From Pseudonocardiales bacterium (lineage in GTDB: Bacteria; Actinomycetota; Actinomycetes; Mycobacteriales; Jatrophihabitantaceae): a stretch of DNA of 35,973 nucleotides. The stretch lies in the NCBI GenBank assembly GCA_030840445.1, contig JAVEEN010000075.1, forward strand, positions 1 to 35,973, given 5' to 3'. The position numbers and the translations under genes are program-made. Positions 21,508-32,440 of this stretch are shown here, piece by piece (position 1 is the stretch's first letter; the number at the start of each line of letters is the position of its first letter). Under the pieces are notes generated by a model. The model did no database searches. It had not been told where the DNA came from and saw only the letters and a list, made by a program, of their open reading frames with translations.

Positions 21508-21522
21508 TGACCAGCCTGGTCA
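21508..21522. repeat. Palindrome TGACCAG-C-CTGGTCA overlapping the DUF35 stop codon
   Basis: 7-bp perfect arms around one central base. Confidence 0.7.
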
Positions 21523-21975
21523 GAACAATGTGAACATGAAGTCCGTGATCCGGCCCTGGGGTTCGTCGACGAAGCAGGCGCGGACCCTTGGCCGTGCCTG
21601 CAACCTGTCCGCGGCGTCGGAGATGTTGCTCAGGTCCAGCCCGGTGACGACATTCAACAAGGCGGTGTCAGCGCCGTCGAATGTGACATAGGCAATAACC
21701 ACGGGCGGCTTGGGCATGCCCGCGAACGTCGCCGTCAGGATGGTGAACGTCTCCACGACTCCTTCCGGTCCTACCTCCACCCAATCCTCGGTCCGTTGAA
21801 AGCACACGTCGCAGAACGAGCGCGCCGGGACCAGCACCCGCTTGCAGGACGGGCAGCACACTCCCATGATCCGTCGATTGTCCTTCAGCTCACCGAAGAA
21901 TCTGCTTGCAGCCTCGCCTGCGAAGTACGTGTAGTCGAACTCCCAGCGTCCGGGAATCGTAATCAGCTCAGTCAT
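21520..21975 (-). CDS. DUF35 Zn-ribbon/OB-fold protein
   Basis: CCPSCKRVLVPARSFCDVCFQRTEDWVEVGPEGVVETFTI; intact CxxC...CxxC ribbon. Confidence 0.92.
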   Translation of the reverse strand: MTELITIPGRWEFDYTYFAGEAASRFFGELKDNRRIMGVCCPSCKRVLVPARSFCDVCFQRTEDWVEVGPEGVVETFTILTATFAGMPKPPVVIAYVTFDGADTALLNVVTGLDLSNISDAADRLQARPRVRACFVDEPQGRITDFMFTLF

Positions 21976-22005: not shown

Positions 22006-23172
22006 CTATTCGGGAGACTCGGCGCCGAGTACGCACACCGTTGAAAACTGGGTGGCACCACCCTGACCGGTTGCCACTGCGCGTACGACATCCGGCACCT
22101 GACGCTCACCGGCGAGACCGCGGACCTGCAACGCACACTCAGCGATCCGGACCATTCCCGTCGCGCTGACCGGGTTGGCGGCCTGTGGCCCGCCGGAAGG
22201 ATTGAAGACCGGAAGGCTGACATCGTCAAGCTGTTCTTGCACGAAGCGCGGGCCGTCCTCCGGCGCGCACATTCCTAGCGCGGGATAAGTCATCGCTTCG
22301 GCACTCGAGAAGGGCGAGTAAAGCTCGATGACGTCGACCTGCCGGCGAGGGTCGGTGATTCCGGCATCGGCGTAGGCACGGCGGGCCGACAGCTCCAGGG
22401 TCAACAGGTCCACCAGCGAACCCGCGGGCCGGTTGATCCGATCCCCCATCGCGTAGCTGTCGGTCATCGAGGACAGGCCCTGGATCCAGGCAACGCTTCG
22501 CGACCCGACGACATCTCCGGCGGCAAGCACCATCGCGCACGCACCCTCGGACATCGGACAGGCCTCGTATCGGTGAATCGGCCAGGCCAGCAGGGGTGAG
22601 TTCATGATGTCCTCGACCGTGACATCGAGCTTGAGGTGGGCTAGCGGATTGCGAAGCGCATTGCGATGGTTGCGGGCAGCGATTTCAGCCCAATCCCTGG
22701 ACGTGTAACCGTATACCCGCATCGACATGGACGCCCTGAGCGCCGCCATGGTGATCGTCGTCAACGGAAAGTCTTTCTCGTAAATGGGATCGAAGACCGT
22801 GTTGAACACGTTCTGCGATGAGGTCGCCTGTCCCATTCGCTCGACCCCGACGACGAGTGCCATCTTCGCTCGTCCGGAAGCGACATAGTCAGCCGCCGCG
22901 AACGTGGCCGACGAGCCGGTCGCGCCACCGGTGTTGACCCGAAGGAACGGCTTGCCGCTGCCGAGAACGGCGGTCTTCTCGACACCGTTCTCACCGGACA
23001 GGGCATCCGGTGCGACGCCGGCGATGATGACGTCGATCGCATCGATGTCGACGTTCGCGTCGCGGAGCGCCTCATCCACGGCCGCCCAGATCAGCTCAGC
23101 CGAGCTCAGCTCCGGATGAGCCCGCTTGTAGGGCGTCTGCCCGATCCCGATGATGCCGACCCGCGCGCTCAT
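22006..23172 (-). CDS. Thiolase/SCP2-like family protein
   Basis: VGIIGIGQTPYKR, RVNTGGATGSSATFAAADYVASG, NPSGGPQAANPVSATGMVRIAE. ATG 23172, ATGA overlap with upstream gene. Confidence 0.9.
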   Translation of the reverse strand: MSARVGIIGIGQTPYKRAHPELSSAELIWAAVDEALRDANVDIDAIDVIIAGVAPDALSGENGVEKTAVLGSGKPFLRVNTGGATGSSATFAAADYVASGRAKMALVVGVERMGQATSSQNVFNTVFDPIYEKDFPLTTITMAALRASMSMRVYGYTSRDWAEIAARNHRNALRNPLAHLKLDVTVEDIMNSPLLAWPIHRYEACPMSEGACAMVLAAGDVVGSRSVAWIQGLSSMTDSYAMGDRINRPAGSLVDLLTLELSARRAYADAGITDPRRQVDVIELYSPFSSAEAMTYPALGMCAPEDGPRFVQEQLDDVSLPVFNPSGGPQAANPVSATGMVRIAECALQVRGLAGERQVPDVVRAVATGQGGATQFSTVCVLGAESPE

Positions 23173-24248
23173 GCTGCCTCGACAACAATGGCGGTGTGGG
23201 TCTGGCCGGCAACCGTGGATGACCCGGTAGCCATGGCCCGTCTGGCTCCGGCCACTTGGTTGACACCGGCCTCTCCGCGCAGCTGCAGGATGCTCTCGAC
23301 GATCCTTACGAGCCCCATGGCGGGTGGGCAGTAGCCGGCCGCACCGCCTCCGGATGGGTTGCACCGTGGATCATCGGCCAGCTGCTCGAGCCCCTGCCCG
23401 GCCGCGGCGAACCCGATCGATTCCAGGCCCATGGCTTCATCGATGAGTGTCAAGCCGTCGACCTCGACCACATCGAGCTGCGAGCTGGTTGTGCCTGCCT
23501 GCGTCATCGCACGACCAGCCGCCAGCTGGAGCCCTTGTAGGGCACGGAGATTGCGGTCACCGAGCGCGTAAGGCTCTGACGACTGGCCCGCTCCGATAAC
23601 CCGGATCGGCGCCGGCTCGACGGACAGGATGAGGGCAACCGCGACATCCGCCCAGAGCGGTAGGTCCGCTGGCACCAGTGGATAGGGCGCCGCCGATTGG
23701 TATCCGCCGCTCTTGAGCGCCCGTGGATTCGCTCGAGCGGCCTCGTCGCGACGCAGTGACGCTCGTGTTCGCTGCTCCTTGTGGTGGTCGGTCGCCAGGT
23801 ACAGTTGGGCCCGCATCGCGGAAAGAACGAACTCGTTCAAGCCGATCGGCCGCCCGTAGATCGGATCGAACAATGTCTGCGAAAACTGGTCATAGTTGTA
23901 CTCGCTCGACCTGCCCCATGCCGCGACGACCGATCGTCGGGCCCGGCCGCTTTCGAGCTTGGTCATGGCGCCGACGAGAGCACCGGCCGCGTCGTCGGAG
24001 AAGCGGATCTCCTCGCGAAGATACGCTCCTGCGGCCGGAGCGGTGACCATGCTCGACAGCGAGCGGCCATCCACCAGGTCGTGGGCGGCCAACACCACCG
24101 AATCCACCGCGTCTATGGATTGGTCCGCGTCCTCGAGCGCCAGAGTGACGGTGTCGAAGATGAGTTCTGAGAGGTCCTTCGTCGCATCGTGCCAACCGAT
24201 ATTGAGCGCGATTCCTTCGATGTAGACAGGGGTATCGACGACTGTCAT
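23169..24248 (-). CDS. Divergent thiolase-like protein, no recognisable active-site Cys
   Basis: Thiolase-like N-terminal repeat, VDSVVLAAHDLVDGRSLS, DVVEVDGLTLIDEAMGLESIG, CNPSGGGAAGYCPPAMGLVRIVESILQLRGEAG. Confidence 0.85.
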   Translation of the reverse strand: MTVVDTPVYIEGIALNIGWHDATKDLSELIFDTVTLALEDADQSIDAVDSVVLAAHDLVDGRSLSSMVTAPAAGAYLREEIRFSDDAAGALVGAMTKLESGRARRSVVAAWGRSSEYNYDQFSQTLFDPIYGRPIGLNEFVLSAMRAQLYLATDHHKEQRTRASLRRDEAARANPRALKSGGYQSAAPYPLVPADLPLWADVAVALILSVEPAPIRVIGAGQSSEPYALGDRNLRALQGLQLAAGRAMTQAGTTSSQLDVVEVDGLTLIDEAMGLESIGFAAAGQGLEQLADDPRCNPSGGGAAGYCPPAMGLVRIVESILQLRGEAGVNQVAGARRAMATGSSTVAGQTHTAIVVEAA

Positions 24249-25405
24249 CAGCTTTCCAACTCACTCGGGACGGCTTGCATGGCCTTGACCAGCGTCGACG
24301 GGTCGCCGACGTAGTTGGCGATGGACTCGAGGAACGTCGCGGGCTGAACCCCGTCGACGATTCGGTGATCGATGCTGAACGAGATCTCTAGCAGGTCCGC
24401 GATGATCAATTGTTCTGCTACTACCCACGGGCGGCGGTTCACCCTCCCGACCGCCAGGATCACGCACTCGGGCGGGTTGAGCATCGGCACGCCCGGCCCT
24501 ACATTTGCCTTCGCCCCGATGTTGGTGATGGTGGCGGTTCCCCTCGTCACATCAGCCGGAGTGCACTCACCCCGGCGAGCCTTCTCCACCAGCTCGCGAA
24601 TGGCGCCACCGAGCGCCGGCAGTGACATCGTCTGCGTCCGCTTCACATTCGGCACGAGCATCCCCCGCGGTGAGGCGGTGGCTATCCCGAGGTTCACGTC
24701 CGAGTGCAGCAGGATGTCATCGGTATCGCTGTCCCAAGATGAATTCATGATCGGCTGTTCGACCAGGGCCTGAGTCATCGCCGCGGCAATCACGGTCAGG
24801 ATATTTATCCGCGACTCCGGCGTAGCCTCAGCGTTGGCATCCTGCACGAACTGGAGCGTCGGCGTCACGTTCACGGTGGTCCAGGTGCCTGCCTGCGGGA
24901 TCTCACGCATGGCTCGGACCATCCGCGCCGCCGTGCCGCGCCGCAGCGAATCAGCGTGAATGCGACTCGTGGCGTAACCCGAGGACTCGGGCTGCGCGGC
25001 CGCCACGATCGGTTCAGGCGGGGCGGCGGTCGCGGGTCGTGGTCGGCGCCGACGGACAGCGAAATCTAGATGCGGTCCGGAACCCACCAGCATCGTGCTG
25101 CCGTCGTCGCTGGACGTGTCGGTCTCGCGAGTTTGAGGATGCTCCTGATCATCGGGGGAATTCGGATCCACCACGTCGACGAGAACGGTGCCGACGTCTA
25201 CCGTCTGATCTTGGGCAACAAAGAGTGTGCGCACGGTGCCTGAGTAGGGCGACGGCAACTCCACGCTGGCCTTGGCCGTTTCCACGACCACTAGTGGCTG
25301 GTTCAGTTCGATGGTGTCGCCCTCGCTGACCAGCCACTCGATCACGGTTCCCTCGGTGAGCCCCTCACCGAGATCCGGCATCAGGAAACGCTGAACGAGA
25401 CTCAT
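24248..25405 (-). CDS. 2-oxoacid dehydrogenase E2 (dihydrolipoamide acyltransferase), lacking an evident peripheral subunit-binding domain
   Basis: Lipoyl domain MPDLGEGLTEGTVIEWLVSEGD...VETAKASVELPSPYSG; catalytic FSIDHRIVDGVQPATFL. Confidence 0.93.
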   Translation of the reverse strand: MSLVQRFLMPDLGEGLTEGTVIEWLVSEGDTIELNQPLVVVETAKASVELPSPYSGTVRTLFVAQDQTVDVGTVLVDVVDPNSPDDQEHPQTRETDTSSDDGSTMLVGSGPHLDFAVRRRRPRPATAAPPEPIVAAAQPESSGYATSRIHADSLRRGTAARMVRAMREIPQAGTWTTVNVTPTLQFVQDANAEATPESRINILTVIAAAMTQALVEQPIMNSSWDSDTDDILLHSDVNLGIATASPRGMLVPNVKRTQTMSLPALGGAIRELVEKARRGECTPADVTRGTATITNIGAKANVGPGVPMLNPPECVILAVGRVNRRPWVVAEQLIIADLLEISFSIDHRIVDGVQPATFLESIANYVGDPSTLVKAMQAVPSELES

Positions 25406-26382
25406 GTCGTGACCCCATATCTCAACGACGTGTCGACCGCATCCACGATCCGGTCCATGCCGGGCAGGTACTCGTGTTCGAGAGCGGCCGCGGGATAAGG
25501 CGTGCTCATGGCGCCGACCCGAAGCGGTGGGGCCTTCAGAGCCGCGAAACAGTCACCCGCCACCCGTGCGACGAGTTCGCCACCGAACCCACCGAAGACG
25601 GGAGCTTCGTGGACCACCACCATCCGACCGGTCCTGGTCACCGAGCCGACCAGCATGTTGATCTCGAGCGGATTCAGCTTGAACAGGTCCAGCACTTCGA
25701 TGCTGACCCCTTCCTGCGCGAAGTACTCCCGCACGGCCAGGCACAGCTTGACGGTCGGCCCGTAACCGACCAGGGTCAGATCGCTGCCCTGGCCGGCGAT
25801 CCGCGCACCCGGCGCGTCCGGCTCCCGCTGCGCGAGTTCGCACTCCTCTTTCACCCAGTAGTCGTGCTTCGGTTCGAAGAAGATCACCGGATCGTCATCC
25901 TCGATCGCCTCACGCAGCAGCGCGTACCCCTGCGACGGCGTGGAGGGCGTGAACACCTTGAGCCCCGGGGTCGGGATGAAATACGCCTCAGGCGAATCAG
26001 AATGATGCTCGGCGGCACCGATGTTGCCGCCATAGGGCACTCGGATCACGACCGGCATGGTCTGCTGGCCACGCGAGCGGTACCTGAACCGCGATAGATG
26101 CCAAGTGATCTGTGCGAATGCCGGATAGACAAACGAATCGAATTGCATCTCGACGACCGGCCGATAGCCACCCATCGCAAGTCCCACGGCCGCGCCGACC
26201 AGCGTCGACTCCGAGATTGGAGTGTTCAACACGCGGTCTTCGCCGAATTGTGCGATAAGGCCATCCGTGACCCGGAAGACGCCACCCAGGTCGCCGACAT
26301 CCTCGCCCATCAACAGCACTCGGGGGTCTGCCTTCATCGAGTCGCTGAGTGCGGCGTTGAGCGCGGTCACGAATGTAGTCAC
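25402..26382 (-). CDS. 2-oxoacid dehydrogenase E1 beta
   Basis: LMGEDVGDLGGVFRVTDGL...TPISESTLVGAAVGLAMGGYRPVVEMQF; GTG start 26382 overlapping the E1alpha stop. Confidence 0.93.
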   Translation of the reverse strand: MTTFVTALNAALSDSMKADPRVLLMGEDVGDLGGVFRVTDGLIAQFGEDRVLNTPISESTLVGAAVGLAMGGYRPVVEMQFDSFVYPAFAQITWHLSRFRYRSRGQQTMPVVIRVPYGGNIGAAEHHSDSPEAYFIPTPGLKVFTPSTPSQGYALLREAIEDDDPVIFFEPKHDYWVKEECELAQREPDAPGARIAGQGSDLTLVGYGPTVKLCLAVREYFAQEGVSIEVLDLFKLNPLEINMLVGSVTRTGRMVVVHEAPVFGGFGGELVARVAGDCFAALKAPPLRVGAMSTPYPAAALEHEYLPGMDRIVDAVDTSLRYGVTT

Positions 26383-27458
26383 GAAGTCGCCTGCGTTTCC
26401 TCGTTGAATGCGAGCCAGGCGCGGCGTTCGGCTTCCAGATGCTGAGGCCGGGTTCCGTAGACGTGATCGAAGATCTGTTCCGGCTGCACCGGTGGCGGAT
26501 CTGCGACGCACGCCGCCCGAACCGCGGTTGCGCAGACCTCGGCCTCCTGGTCGATGGCGTCGAGGTCCGACCGGGTGACGAGGCCCGCGCCAAGCACGAA
26601 ATCACGCATCCGGATGATCGGGTCCCGAAGTCGCCAGGTCGCAACCTCGTCCGCCTTGCGGTAGCGATCTGGATCATCGGAGGTCGTGTGCGGCCCGATG
26701 CGATAGGTCAACGCTTCGACCAGGGTCGGGCCCTCGCCAGCGCGGGCCCGCCGGGCCGCCCTGGCCGTTACCGCGTAACAACCCAGCACGTCATTACCGT
26801 CTACCTGCACACCCGGAAGGCCGAAGCCCTCGGATCGTCGATACAACGGAAGCGGTGCCGACCTCTCGACCGGGTTGGAAAGCGCGTACTGGTTGTTCTC
26901 GCAGAAGAAGACTACCGGCGACTTGTAGAGCGCGGACCACAGGAGAGACTCGTGGACGTCGCCGGTACCGAACGCGCCATCGCCGAGGTAGGCGATAACG
27001 GCGGCGTTCTTCTGATCCCGCCGCAAGGCCATGCCGTATCCGACCGCATGCGGGGCTTGGCTGCCGATCGGGAACGTGTAGAGCGCGATGCCACTTGCTT
27101 CGACACTCCAGCCGCCACCCTGAATCTCGCCGCGCCAGACCGAGAGCATCTCAGCGGGATCGATACCGACGGTCAGGCCGACGCCGAATTGCCGGCCCTG
27201 CGGGAAGGCCCGATCACCTGGCTGCAGCGCAGCGGCACTGCCAACCTGTGCGGCCTCTTGCCCGAACACCGGGCCCCAGAGCTTGAGGTATCCCTGTCGC
27301 TGCAGGTTTATCGCCTCGACATCGGCGCGACGCACGAGAATCAGCCGTCGGTAGAGCCCGATGATGTCCGCGTCACTGAGACCCAACGGGTAGTCAGGGT
27401 GCTCGGTAAACGTCCCATCCTCACTGAGAAGTTGGACGGCGGACGGGTCTAATTCCAT
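26379..27458 (-). CDS. 2-oxoacid dehydrogenase E1 alpha
   Basis: ThDP motif GDGAFGTGDVHES...CENNQYAL; TYRIGPHTTSDDPDRYR. ATG 27458 chosen over TTG 27494, which lies within operator site 3. Confidence 0.92.
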   Translation of the reverse strand: MELDPSAVQLLSEDGTFTEHPDYPLGLSDADIIGLYRRLILVRRADVEAINLQRQGYLKLWGPVFGQEAAQVGSAAALQPGDRAFPQGRQFGVGLTVGIDPAEMLSVWRGEIQGGGWSVEASGIALYTFPIGSQAPHAVGYGMALRRDQKNAAVIAYLGDGAFGTGDVHESLLWSALYKSPVVFFCENNQYALSNPVERSAPLPLYRRSEGFGLPGVQVDGNDVLGCYAVTARAARRARAGEGPTLVEALTYRIGPHTTSDDPDRYRKADEVATWRLRDPIIRMRDFVLGAGLVTRSDLDAIDQEAEVCATAVRAACVADPPPVQPEQIFDHVYGTRPQHLEAERRAWLAFNEETQATS

Positions 27459-27487
27459 GTTCCCCAGTGAACCAATCTTGATCTGTG

Positions 27488-27509
27488 CTGTCAACAGGCA
27501 TGTTGACAG
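27488..27509. promoter_or_regulatory. Operator site 3: CTGTCAACA-GGCA-TGTTGACAG (core GTCAAC-N6-GTTGAC at 27490-27507)
   Basis: 9-bp perfect arms; rightward TTGACA (27503-27508)-N17-TACAAA (27526-27531) promoter-like element. Confidence 0.9.
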
Positions 27510-28259: not shown

Positions 28260-29399
28260 CTAGATCAGACCGCTCTCGCGCTCCAACCAGAGTGCCGCGG
28301 TATCGGTGGTACCGCCCTGTAGTTCGGTCAGCTTCGCCCGCGACGACCACAGATGAAGATCGGTGTCGAGGACATAACCCATCCCGCCTTGTAACTGATG
28401 ACAGTTCAGGGTGGCCCACTTGTAGGCCTCGTTGCATTTCATCTTCGCGATCGCGACCGCGCGGTTGGCGATCTCGCCGCGGCCAGTCCACCACGCGGCC
28501 TGGGTCGCCGTCAGCCGGGCAGCGTCCAAGGCGATCCGCATGTCCGCGACCAGGTGCTGAACCGCCTGGAAGCTGCCGATCGGCCGACCGAACTGCTCGC
28601 GCACCTTCGTGTACGCCACGGTCTGCTCGATGACGGCGGCAGTGCCACCGACCATCTCCATGCATTGCAGGGCAATCGCGGAATTTGCCAGCCATGCCAG
28701 GTCGCCCTCGGCCAAGCCGGTGCCGTCCGGCCCGGTCAGCACGGCGTCATCGGCGACGAAGTAATCGCTCAGTACCACCTCGCTCTGCTGGTCGTGCGCG
28801 ATCGTCATGAGCGCCCGCGCCAACCAGCCTGCGCCACCAGGCTGGATCAGGAATCCGTAGGTGCGCTGCGGTTCACGATGGACCGATGTTCGCGCGGTCA
28901 CCATCAGCACGTCCACCGCTTGAGCGTTCTGGACAAACAGCAGCCTCCCGCTCAGCAACCAGCCATCGGCCACCCGAAGCGCGCTCAACCGAGGACGGAG
29001 ATCGGCGGCATTGGATGGATTCCACGTCGCATGGCTTGCGCGGAGCCGACCCTCGACCAAGTCGGGCAGGTACCGGGACTTGAGTTGATCACCACCGAGC
29101 CGAGCGACGCCGAGGCCGAAGACCATGGTCGAGTACACGATTGTGGGGCACAGAGCACGTCCAGCCTGTTCGAAAACCAGACCGAGTTCGTACTGGCCGG
29201 CACCGGCGCCACCGTACTTCTCCTCGAACGGGATGCCGAAGATCCCGGCGCTCGCCAGGGCCTGCCACAAGGTGGGCGCAAGCCCGTCGGATCCCGGTTC
29301 GCGCAGTCGCCGCACGAGCGAGGTCGGGCATTCTCGCGTGAAGAGCGAACGCGCGACAGCGCCTAGTTCCAGCTGTTCGGCCGAGTGGGTGAGATCCAT
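28260..29399 (-). CDS. Acyl-CoA dehydrogenase, divergent C-terminus (probable partner subunit)
   Basis: ACAD fold motifs (YGGAGAGQYELGLVFEQAGRALCP, REQFGRPIGSFQAVQH, HQLQGGMGYVLDTDLHLW). Confidence 0.9.
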   Translation of the reverse strand: MDLTHSAEQLELGAVARSLFTRECPTSLVRRLREPGSDGLAPTLWQALASAGIFGIPFEEKYGGAGAGQYELGLVFEQAGRALCPTIVYSTMVFGLGVARLGGDQLKSRYLPDLVEGRLRASHATWNPSNAADLRPRLSALRVADGWLLSGRLLFVQNAQAVDVLMVTARTSVHREPQRTYGFLIQPGGAGWLARALMTIAHDQQSEVVLSDYFVADDAVLTGPDGTGLAEGDLAWLANSAIALQCMEMVGGTAAVIEQTVAYTKVREQFGRPIGSFQAVQHLVADMRIALDAARLTATQAAWWTGRGEIANRAVAIAKMKCNEAYKWATLNCHQLQGGMGYVLDTDLHLWSSRAKLTELQGGTTDTAALWLERESGLI

Positions 29400-29438
29400 C
29401 CGTGGTGCCTCTCAGGAGTAGTCCGTGCTGGCTGGGGG

Positions 29439-30617
29439 CTAGCGGCCCAGCCGGGGCATCGTGTACCCGCGCTGCGCGATCACATCGCGCAACACCTCGT
29501 TCGTGCCGGCGCCGAAGCGCATGAGCGGTGCGTTGCGGTACAGCTTCTCGTACCTGCCTGCCGCCGGTGCGGCCGGATCAGCTGTACTCAGCGCGCCAGC
29601 CAGCCCGAAAATCCTGGTGCCCACGTCGGCAATCCGTTGCCGCAACTCGCTCGTGAACACCTTGGCCACAGTTACCGTGATCGTCGGCATCTCCCCGATC
29701 TCCAGCAGGGACGCCGCTTCCAACCCCATCAGCACGGCGGCCTCGACATCGGCGTCGAGCTGGGCGATCGCGCGCCGCACCTCCGCGTTATCGACGGGCC
29801 GGGTGCCGTCCTCCAGCGGTAGCCGTACCAGCTCCTTGAGCTCGTCGACGTGCCTGCGAAAATCACCGGCGTTGGTGAGCGCGCCACGTTCGAGGGACAG
29901 CGCGCCTGTGATGTACTGCCAACCCTCGTTCAGCTGGCCGATCAGGTTCGTGCGCGGTACCCGAACATCGGTGAAGAACGTTTCGTTGGTGCGGTAGTCG
30001 GCCCACGTGATGAGCGGGCGGACCTCGACGCCGGGAGTGTCGATAGGGACGATGATGACGGAGATCCCGCGGTGTTTGGGCGCCTCCGGGTCCGTCCGAA
30101 CGCACAGCCACTCGTGGGTGGCCACGTGCGCCTGGCTGTTCCAGATCTTGGACCCGTTGATAACCCATTCCTCGCCGTCGAGTTCGGCGCGAGTCTTCAG
30201 GCTGGCGAGATCGGTTCCGGCGTTCGGCTCGGAATAGCCCACGGCGTAGCGGACCTCGCCGCGCGCGATCGGTGGCAGGAATTGCTCGCGATTCTGCTGC
30301 GTGCCATGCCGCATTATCATCGGGGCCACCGACGTCACGGTGAGATCGGGACCCTGGACGCCCCAGTATTCGAACTCGTCCATCAGGATGTGCTGGTAGA
30401 TCGGACCGAGACCCATGCCGCCGAATTCCGCCGGCCAGTTCAAGCCGAACCAGCCCTTGGCGCCGATCTTCTTACGAAACGCGGCGACCTCGCCACCTAA
30501 CAGCGTGGTGCGGTGCTCACCAACCTCGGCCAGGAGTTCGGGCGTGACGTTCTCGCGAAGAAAGGCGCGCACTTCATCGCGCCAGACAGATTGGGCGGCG
30601 TCCAGTTCGAAGTTCAC
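29439..30617 (-). CDS. Acyl-CoA dehydrogenase (FadE-like)
   Basis: AVGYSEPNAGTDLASLKTRAELDGEEWVINGSKIW, RFGAGTNEVLRDVIAQRGY; GTG start 30617. Confidence 0.92.
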   Translation of the reverse strand: MNFELDAAQSVWRDEVRAFLRENVTPELLAEVGEHRTTLLGGEVAAFRKKIGAKGWFGLNWPAEFGGMGLGPIYQHILMDEFEYWGVQGPDLTVTSVAPMIMRHGTQQNREQFLPPIARGEVRYAVGYSEPNAGTDLASLKTRAELDGEEWVINGSKIWNSQAHVATHEWLCVRTDPEAPKHRGISVIIVPIDTPGVEVRPLITWADYRTNETFFTDVRVPRTNLIGQLNEGWQYITGALSLERGALTNAGDFRRHVDELKELVRLPLEDGTRPVDNAEVRRAIAQLDADVEAAVLMGLEAASLLEIGEMPTITVTVAKVFTSELRQRIADVGTRIFGLAGALSTADPAAPAAGRYEKLYRNAPLMRFGAGTNEVLRDVIAQRGYTMPRLGR

Positions 30618-30700
30618 GCAGCGCAGTATGGGTGCCTCGACTGACCTCGGACAAGCGCCTTGACCACCCACCGGCACGGACAATTGCCGCACCTACCGAA

Positions 30701-30743
30701 TCGTGTAACGCTCGGCATCCCCAGGCTGCCGGTTGTTACACGA
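30701..30743. repeat. Two-tier inverted repeat TCGTGTAAC-gct-CGGCA-N9-TGCCG-gtt-GTTACACGA
   Basis: Outer 9-bp and inner 5-bp perfect arms with a symmetric 3x3 internal loop, in the gap between the ThDP enzyme stop and the ACAD start. Confidence 0.8.
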
Positions 30744-30753
30744 TCCAGGGTTT

Positions 30754-32394
30754 TCATGCATGCTGTCGCTGGTAGACCTCGCTCATTGGCGTCATCGCGA
30801 TCGAGACGTCCAGCAACCGCACCCCGCTCATCCCCAGCAGCTCGTTCAGGCCATCGCGCAACGAGGCAAGGTCCTCGGCTCGCCGTGCGGTAACACCTAG
30901 CGCCTGCGCGACGGCGACCAGATCGATCGCGTCTTCGAAGGTGCCCTCGCGGGTATCCAGATCGCCCAGTACCAGCTTGTGATACTCCGAGCCGTAGCCA
31001 CGATTGTTCATCACCAACACCAACAGGTCCCGACCGAAACGGACCGCGGACTGCAGCTCCTGCAGGTTCATCGCCATGCTGCCGTCACCTTCCAGGGCAA
31101 CGACCAACCCGCCCGGCTCGGCTACCGCCGCCCCGACAGCGAGCGGCAACGCCTGCCCAATCAGGGCAAAACCGCAGCCGAACTGAAACCGGCGGTGATC
31201 GTTCGTGCGCAGGTATGGCGCGAGGAAATACCAGAAGTGCCCGATGCCGACGACGAAGTAAGCATCCTCGGGCAGCACTTCGTTGAACACCGAGACCACG
31301 GCCCATGGGTTGGGCCCGTCCGGTTCTGGTGCAGCGATCAGCGCCTCCTGGCGGCTACCCTCGACCGCGAGCCGATCAAGGGTGGTCTGGGTTCGCAACC
31401 CCACGCGCGGCTCCGGCAACTGCTTCGCCAATGCCTGCACCAGATCAGCGGCATCACCGGTCAGGTGGACTACCCGCTCGGGCGCCGGATCCCAAAGCTC
31501 GGAGGGTGCGCGGTTGTCGATCCGGACGATCGAGGCGCTGCCGAAAGCCGCGCCTGCCTCGGTGTTGTAGAGGTCCAGCGCCGCCCCGACGATGAGCACG
31601 ACATCGGCCTCGGCGGCAAGCTCCCGGGCGAGGGGGGTGGCCATCCAGCCCGTCAGCTCCAGCCGGAAAGGCTCGCTGCCCAGGACACCCTTGGCGCCCA
31701 CCGTCGTGAGGAAGGCGGCGCCCAGACCACGTCCCAAGTCGAGCACCTCGGCGATGCAACCAGTGGCGCCGTGGCCCACGACAACCAGCGGAGCCCGGGA
31801 GCCGGCCAACAACCGGACGGCGGCATCGAGGTTCGGCTCATCCCGCGGCGCCACCGGCTTAATCAACGGCGCGGCTTGGGGAAGCTGCTCTAGTTCAGCC
31901 CCGAACACGTCGATGACGACCGAGAGGACGCATGGTGTGCCGCCACGGGCGATAGCCAGAGACCGAGCCAGCGCATCAGCCAGGTCGGCGGCCGAGTCGA
32001 CCCGGATGTAGATGGCACCGCACGCCTGGACCCAGGCGGCCTGCTCGGCGGACTGGGCCTGCCCCGGCGGGTACTCGCTGGTCTCGGCAGTGATCAACAA
32101 CACAGATCGGCGGGTTCGCACGGCGGCGGTCAGTGCGGCCAGCGACTGTGCCAGACCCGGTCCCATGGTCACGGTCGCGACGCCCACATCGCCGAGCGCC
32201 GCGGCGTAACCGTCGGCCATGCCCAGCGCGCCGGCTTCGTGCCAGGCGGGGCACCACAGGGTGCCCGGCAGTCGGTTATAGGCCGAGATCCAATGCATAT
32301 TCCCGTCGCCTATAACTCCAAAGACCACGCTGACGCCGTGGCCTGCTAGCAGCGCGGCGAACGCCTGGTAGGCCTTCACTGTTGCCCCCTTCAT
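30754..32394 (-). CDS. Thiamine pyrophosphate-dependent enzyme (acetolactate synthase/benzoylformate decarboxylase superfamily)
   Basis: WHEAGALGMADGYA (HExxA), EGDGSMAMNLQELQSAVRFGRDLLVLVMNNRGYG ThDP motif; start ATG 32394 (MKGATVKAYQ) or 32418. Confidence 0.92.
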   Translation of the reverse strand: MKGATVKAYQAFAALLAGHGVSVVFGVIGDGNMHWISAYNRLPGTLWCPAWHEAGALGMADGYAAALGDVGVATVTMGPGLAQSLAALTAAVRTRRSVLLITAETSEYPPGQAQSAEQAAWVQACGAIYIRVDSAADLADALARSLAIARGGTPCVLSVVIDVFGAELEQLPQAAPLIKPVAPRDEPNLDAAVRLLAGSRAPLVVVGHGATGCIAEVLDLGRGLGAAFLTTVGAKGVLGSEPFRLELTGWMATPLARELAAEADVVLIVGAALDLYNTEAGAAFGSASIVRIDNRAPSELWDPAPERVVHLTGDAADLVQALAKQLPEPRVGLRTQTTLDRLAVEGSRQEALIAAPEPDGPNPWAVVSVFNEVLPEDAYFVVGIGHFWYFLAPYLRTNDHRRFQFGCGFALIGQALPLAVGAAVAEPGGLVVALEGDGSMAMNLQELQSAVRFGRDLLVLVMNNRGYGSEYHKLVLGDLDTREGTFEDAIDLVAVAQALGVTARRAEDLASLRDGLNELLGMSGVRLLDVSIAMTPMSEVYQRQHA

Positions 32395-32440
32395 GCCCTG
32401 AGTCGGGGTCGCCGGCACGCGCGACTGGGCGCAAGGCTAA

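Follow-up and report, generated by a model that had tools for sequence, protein, structure and literature searches.

Absence of the E1/E3-binding domain from an E2 acyltransferase encoded with its E1 genes in a Pseudonocardiales bacterium

The window, the whole stretch of 35,973 nucleotides that was analyzed, carries on its minus strand a closely packed set of genes for a 2-oxoacid dehydrogenase complex. The E1 alpha subunit (26379..27494; 371 aa) matches PF00676 (3e-68) and TIGR03181, the latter with 362 bits, which is under the cut-off of that model. The E1 beta gene (25402..26382; 326 aa; PF02779/PF02780) begins with a GTG that overlaps the E1alpha stop (GTGA), and this start was set by homology, as the alignment to PDB 1um9_B begins at residue 2. 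The E2 acyltransferase gene (24248..25405; 385 aa) starts within the E1beta stop (ATGA), and ends in a stop that overlaps with the beginning of the gene for a thiolase/lipid-transfer-like protein (23169..24248; PF22691, 7e-16), which has no N-terminal PF00108 match. All of these overlaps are of 4 bases or fewer, and the genes E1alpha, E1beta, E2 and thiolase look translationally coupled. On the same strand follow a second thiolase-domain protein (22006..23172; PF00108 and PF22691; PRK08313 subfamily, under cut-off) and a ChsH2-like OB-fold/zinc ribbon protein (21520..21975; PF01796, PF12172). The tandem thiolase-like pair and the ChsH2-like protein 3' of E2 presumably resemble steroid side-chain retro-aldolase/thiolase sets. 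Upstream of the E1/E2 operon, positions 28260-32418 of the same strand encode two acyl-CoA dehydrogenases (weakly similar to the small and large pimeloyl-CoA dehydrogenase subunits) and a thiamine diphosphate (TPP) enzyme of the acetolactate synthase/2-hydroxyacyl-CoA lyase superfamily. These genes suggest a 2-oxoacid/acyl-CoA catabolic island.

The E2 protein consists of a lipoyl domain (residues 7-77; 25175..25387; PF00364, 1.1e-20; AF2 pLDDT about 90-98), a linker (residues 80-144; 24974..25168), a catalytic acyltransferase domain (residues 146-372; 24290..24970; PF00198, 1e-61) and a C-terminal tail (residues 374-385; 24251..24286). By its motif, K45 within an intact ETAKA (ETAKAS) is the predicted lipoyl lysine, and the catalytic motif DHRIVDG is likewise intact. 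The first-pass annotation had described both motifs as preserved and the protein as probably active but apparently devoid of the peripheral E1/E3-binding domain (PSBD). A significant PF02817 match in the linker or a three-helix PSBD in a predicted structure had been named there as evidence to the contrary, and neither was found. A Pfam search at E<=10 returned only the lipoyl and 2-oxoacid_dh domains above cut-off and no PF02817 match even at that threshold. This search has power because the same Pfam library detects PF02817 in 32 of the 36 aligned E2s, the four exceptions being the window E2, its orthologue and two betaproteobacterial proteins. In a six-frame search of the whole genome, four PF02817 copies were recovered, none of them on the window contig. 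When a local PSBD HMM was applied with maximal sensitivity and no filters, nothing beyond chance appeared in E2 or in any frame of the window; its best score there (E 0.05) fell in an unrelated TPP enzyme, compared with 1e-17 to 1e-19 for PSBD-bearing controls. Residues 86-142 were modeled by AF2 from the alignment of 36 sequences with pLDDT below 50 and no helix, next to a confidently predicted lipoyl domain and core, in a monomer model, which could miss a strongly diverged docking helix if it folded only upon binding. In the same alignment the PSBD columns hold 4 residues of the window E2 versus about 39-46 of its relatives. That a diverged PSBD persists below detection is highly improbable: residues PIV (132-134) line up with the beginning of the PSBD and could be a weak remnant, but the first catalytic strand follows after only about 10 further residues, where the domain needs about 35, and both the helix-free model and the silent HMM stand against it. 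The absence of the PSBD from the window E2 is thus confirmed, and such a loss is unusual for bacteria.

The region between the two remaining domains is not featureless. It had been annotated as a low-complexity linker of residues 81-150, and its coordinates, its peptide and its lack of a PSBD proved exact; however, the true linker spans approximately residues 80-144, while residues 145-150 form the first strand of the catalytic domain. Moreover, the element MLVGSG...RRRRPRP (residues 105-124; 25034..25093) matches a motif, LVG[Y/S]G and then a stretch rich in arginine, which is common to all 27 members of the clade discussed below (one of them reads LIGYG) and precedes the PSBD in the relatives. 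The window E2 keeps it as LVGSG...RRRRPR with a single Y to S change. In each of the 25 clade members that have a PSBD (L003-L040 subset), LVGYG-x(n)-RR lies between the lipoyl domain and the PSBD. No function for the LVGYG motif was found in the literature searched, and this conserved linker element of BkdC-type E2s deserves attention.

A tree built on the lipoyl and catalytic columns places the window E2 and its orthologue, on a branch of 1.47, inside an actinobacterial clade of 27 sequences (support 100/98; placement within the clade 94/85), all other 25 of which have kept the PSBD. By this tree, the window E2 belongs to the BkdC clade, a name that rests on the match to the Mycobacterium tuberculosis cores 3l60 and 6zzn. 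The simplest reading is that the PSBD was deleted from a BkdC-type actinobacterial E2 between the linker motif and the catalytic domain, with a junction predicted from the alignment and the column counts at residues 131-147 (24965..25015). In the 24 genomes of the family, a PSBD lies just upstream in 63 of 70 non-OdhA matches to the E2 catalytic domain; the seven matches without one comprise the two members of the window pair, four fragments that start or end at a contig end and are therefore uninformative, and a single protein that consists of the catalytic domain only. This last one, on G141:C317 (L090), is encoded at 897-1754 as a stand-alone E2 catalytic domain, with neither lipoyl domain nor PSBD, divergent from an E1alpha-like gene. 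L096 was short enough to be taken for another PSBD-less E2, but it has a clear PSBD. A mobile origin was also considered and rejected, as no close plasmid match was obtained (best 44% identity, the listed matches each falling into two pieces).

A search of 24 genomes of the family and 299 of the order, together with samples of 395 genomes from the class and 397 from the phylum, yielded only one close relative of the window E2, a 95% identical protein from one other genome of the genus (L012/L041), which has the same linker and also lacks the PSBD. Between the two loci, dN/dS is 0.139 for E2, 0.089 for E1alpha and 0.134 for E1beta, and within E2 it is 0.118 for the lipoyl domain, 0.239 for the linker and 0.122 for the catalytic domain, all from small counts; since the branch is long, selection specific to the pair was judged from this one pairwise comparison with few changes. 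Even without its PSBD, the E2 gene is apparently intact and under purifying selection, and with its motifs preserved the encoded protein is probably active, as had been proposed. Both genomes with this E2 are draft assemblies of hundreds of contigs each, and both betaproteobacterial loci described below come from MAGs as well, which might raise the suspicion of an assembly artefact or of a decaying gene. An error or pseudogene is nevertheless most unlikely, because the 95% identical orthologue shares the gap and dN/dS is about 0.14; the identical architecture in two genomes, the open reading frame, the intact motifs, the low dN/dS across the operon and the exact 4-base overlaps with the neighboring genes all speak against it.

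A second case was encountered in two MAGs of Betaproteobacteria (L045 and L068), whose E2s combine lipoyl and catalytic domains with no PF02817 match. The genes are arranged in the order E1alpha-E1beta-enoyl-CoA hydratase-E2 (3186-6990 in L045; 3032-6791 in L068), and the L068 locus also contains acyl-CoA dehydrogenase, AMP ligase and ETF genes. As in the window, a PSBD-less E2 is found beside E1alpha and E1beta in an acyl-CoA catabolic locus, but these proteins form a separate lineage in the tree, have no LVGYG motif and are encoded in a different gene order. They constitute an independent case because at least two state changes have to be placed on the tree. A search at E<=1e-70 in 299 other genomes of its order did not recover the short betaproteobacterial E2 again.

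The first-pass annotation had also remarked that no dihydrolipoamide dehydrogenase (E3) gene is encoded nearby, and TIGR01350 indeed detects none on the window contig. The single bona fide E3 of the genome (C231:18125-19480; 472 bits, above the curated cut-off) adjoins another E2 gene. A distant E3 is nonetheless ordinary, because the other contigs with E1/E2 genes (C384, C388 and C297) have no E3 match either, even though their E2s possess PSBDs.

How such a complex might work can be sketched from these data. In other complexes the PSBD is linked to the recruitment of E1 and E3. The reading that we favor, and hold to be rather probable, is that of a functional BkdC-type E2 which has undergone PSBD deletion, in a complex that runs without PSBD tethering and draws on an E3 in trans. 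The lipoyl arm would visit the E1 that is translated from the same operon as well as the single housekeeping E3 of the cell, and the acyl-CoA product would pass to the co-transcribed thiolase and acyl-CoA catabolic enzymes. Contact between E1 and E2 would be weak, probably made through the basic linker, core helix 1 or the lipoyl domain, or would amount to simple encounter. A point against this proposal is that, with the PSBD recruiting E1 and E3 in other complexes, lower efficiency would be expected of an untethered one. From the DHR motif to the end, the window E2 has 40 residues and the pair 40-41, versus 29-33 in all other relatives, so that the tail of the window E2 is about 10 residues longer. 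C-terminal elements govern trimer-trimer contacts in actinobacterial E2p (PMC10415282), and the longer tail may therefore affect core assembly and keep the core of the window E2 trimeric rather than cubic. Two features of E1beta were discarded as signs of lost PSBD docking: a C-terminal extension (RYGVTT) is no such sign, as the PSBD-paired E1betas of L013 and L004 are tailed too, and the 24 of 105 conserved positions at which the window E1beta deviates are scattered along its length and are not diagnostic without an interface structure.

Two other ways of bringing E1 and E3 to the core have to be weighed against untethered operation. E1, and through it E3, could bind the linker and core helix 1 directly and form a tight assembly, as proposed for mammalian E2o. 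Eukaryotic E2o has an unstructured Ala/Pro loop in place of the PSBD, and E1o has been reported to bind linker and core (PMC9681731, PMC9974300). The linker of the window E2 is of similar appearance (PRPATAAPPEPIVAAAQPESS), and linker and helix 1 are very basic (RRRRPRP, RRGTAARMVRAMR). However, E1o is another type of E1, the N-terminal region of which is reported to bind E3, and no such extension is present in the window E1alpha or E1beta; the basic motif, being ancestral among the PSBD-bearing relatives, is no new adaptation; and the genome contains no MRPS36/Kgd4 (PF10937). Direct docking appears possible but doubtful. Docking could alternatively be borrowed from a PSBD-bearing E2 through hetero-oligomers or a supercomplex, in the way that OdhA relies on the PDH E2, which we regard as unlikely. 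A mixed PDH/ODH supercomplex has been proposed for actinobacteria (PMC10415282), and the genome encodes four PSBD-bearing E2s and an OdhA-like protein. Yet OdhA lacks a lipoyl domain of its own, which the window E2 has, the window E2 shares no more than 26-39% identity with the other E2s in the genome, and contacts that prevent the mixing of E2 types have been described (PMC9681731). Beyond untethered operation of this one complex lies a broader and quite improbable conjecture, namely that PSBD-free, untethered E1alpha-beta/E2 complexes serving acyl-CoA catabolism have arisen repeatedly among bacteria and that, in the actinobacterial case, LVG[Y/S]G-x(n)-RRxR, which outlasted the PSBD, acts as a further docking or regulatory element that has not been described before.

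The window E2 complex represents a variation on a well-known type of enzyme complex. With 2-oxoacid dehydrogenase E2s in general it shares a lipoyl domain with a predicted lipoylatable lysine, an HxxxDG catalytic domain and E1 genes in the same operon. BkdC-type complexes use branched-chain 2-oxoacids and are built on a cubic 24-mer core. The CAT-fold core of the window E2 is shared with BkdC of M. tuberculosis (Foldseek matches 6zzn and 3l60, the BCKDH E2 core, and sequence match), and the lipoyl domain, the LVGYG...RR motif and the neighboring E1 genes are common to it and its aligned actinobacterial relatives; unlike these, it has no PSBD and bears the extended C-terminal tail. The actinobacterial OdhA/Kgd resembles it in having an E2 catalytic domain without a PSBD and an E3 encoded elsewhere (PMC10415282), but OdhA is fused to E1o and has no lipoyl domain, whereas the window locus has separate E1 and E2 genes; the OdhA-like protein of this genome is a separate one, encoded on contig C389. 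A text search of the literature for PSBD-less E2s returned only papers on plastids and photosynthesis. The nearest working model is the eukaryotic E2o, which has the same lipoyl-linker-core layout with a disordered Ala/Pro-rich linker for the PSBD (PMC9974300, PMC9681731), although it belongs to other E2 and E1 families and its loss is independent. The 2-oxoglutarate dehydrogenase complex of eukaryotes uses the adaptor MRPS36/Kgd4, for which the window genome has no PF10937 match. E2p and E2b have been described to keep the PSBD in all three kingdoms, while eukaryotic E2o lost it (PMC9974300), and a bacterial E2b-like protein without the domain is a counter-example to its retention in all E2p and E2b. 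The window E2 also offers a natural test, free of the eukaryotic adaptor, of whether such complexes need stable tethering of E1 and E3.
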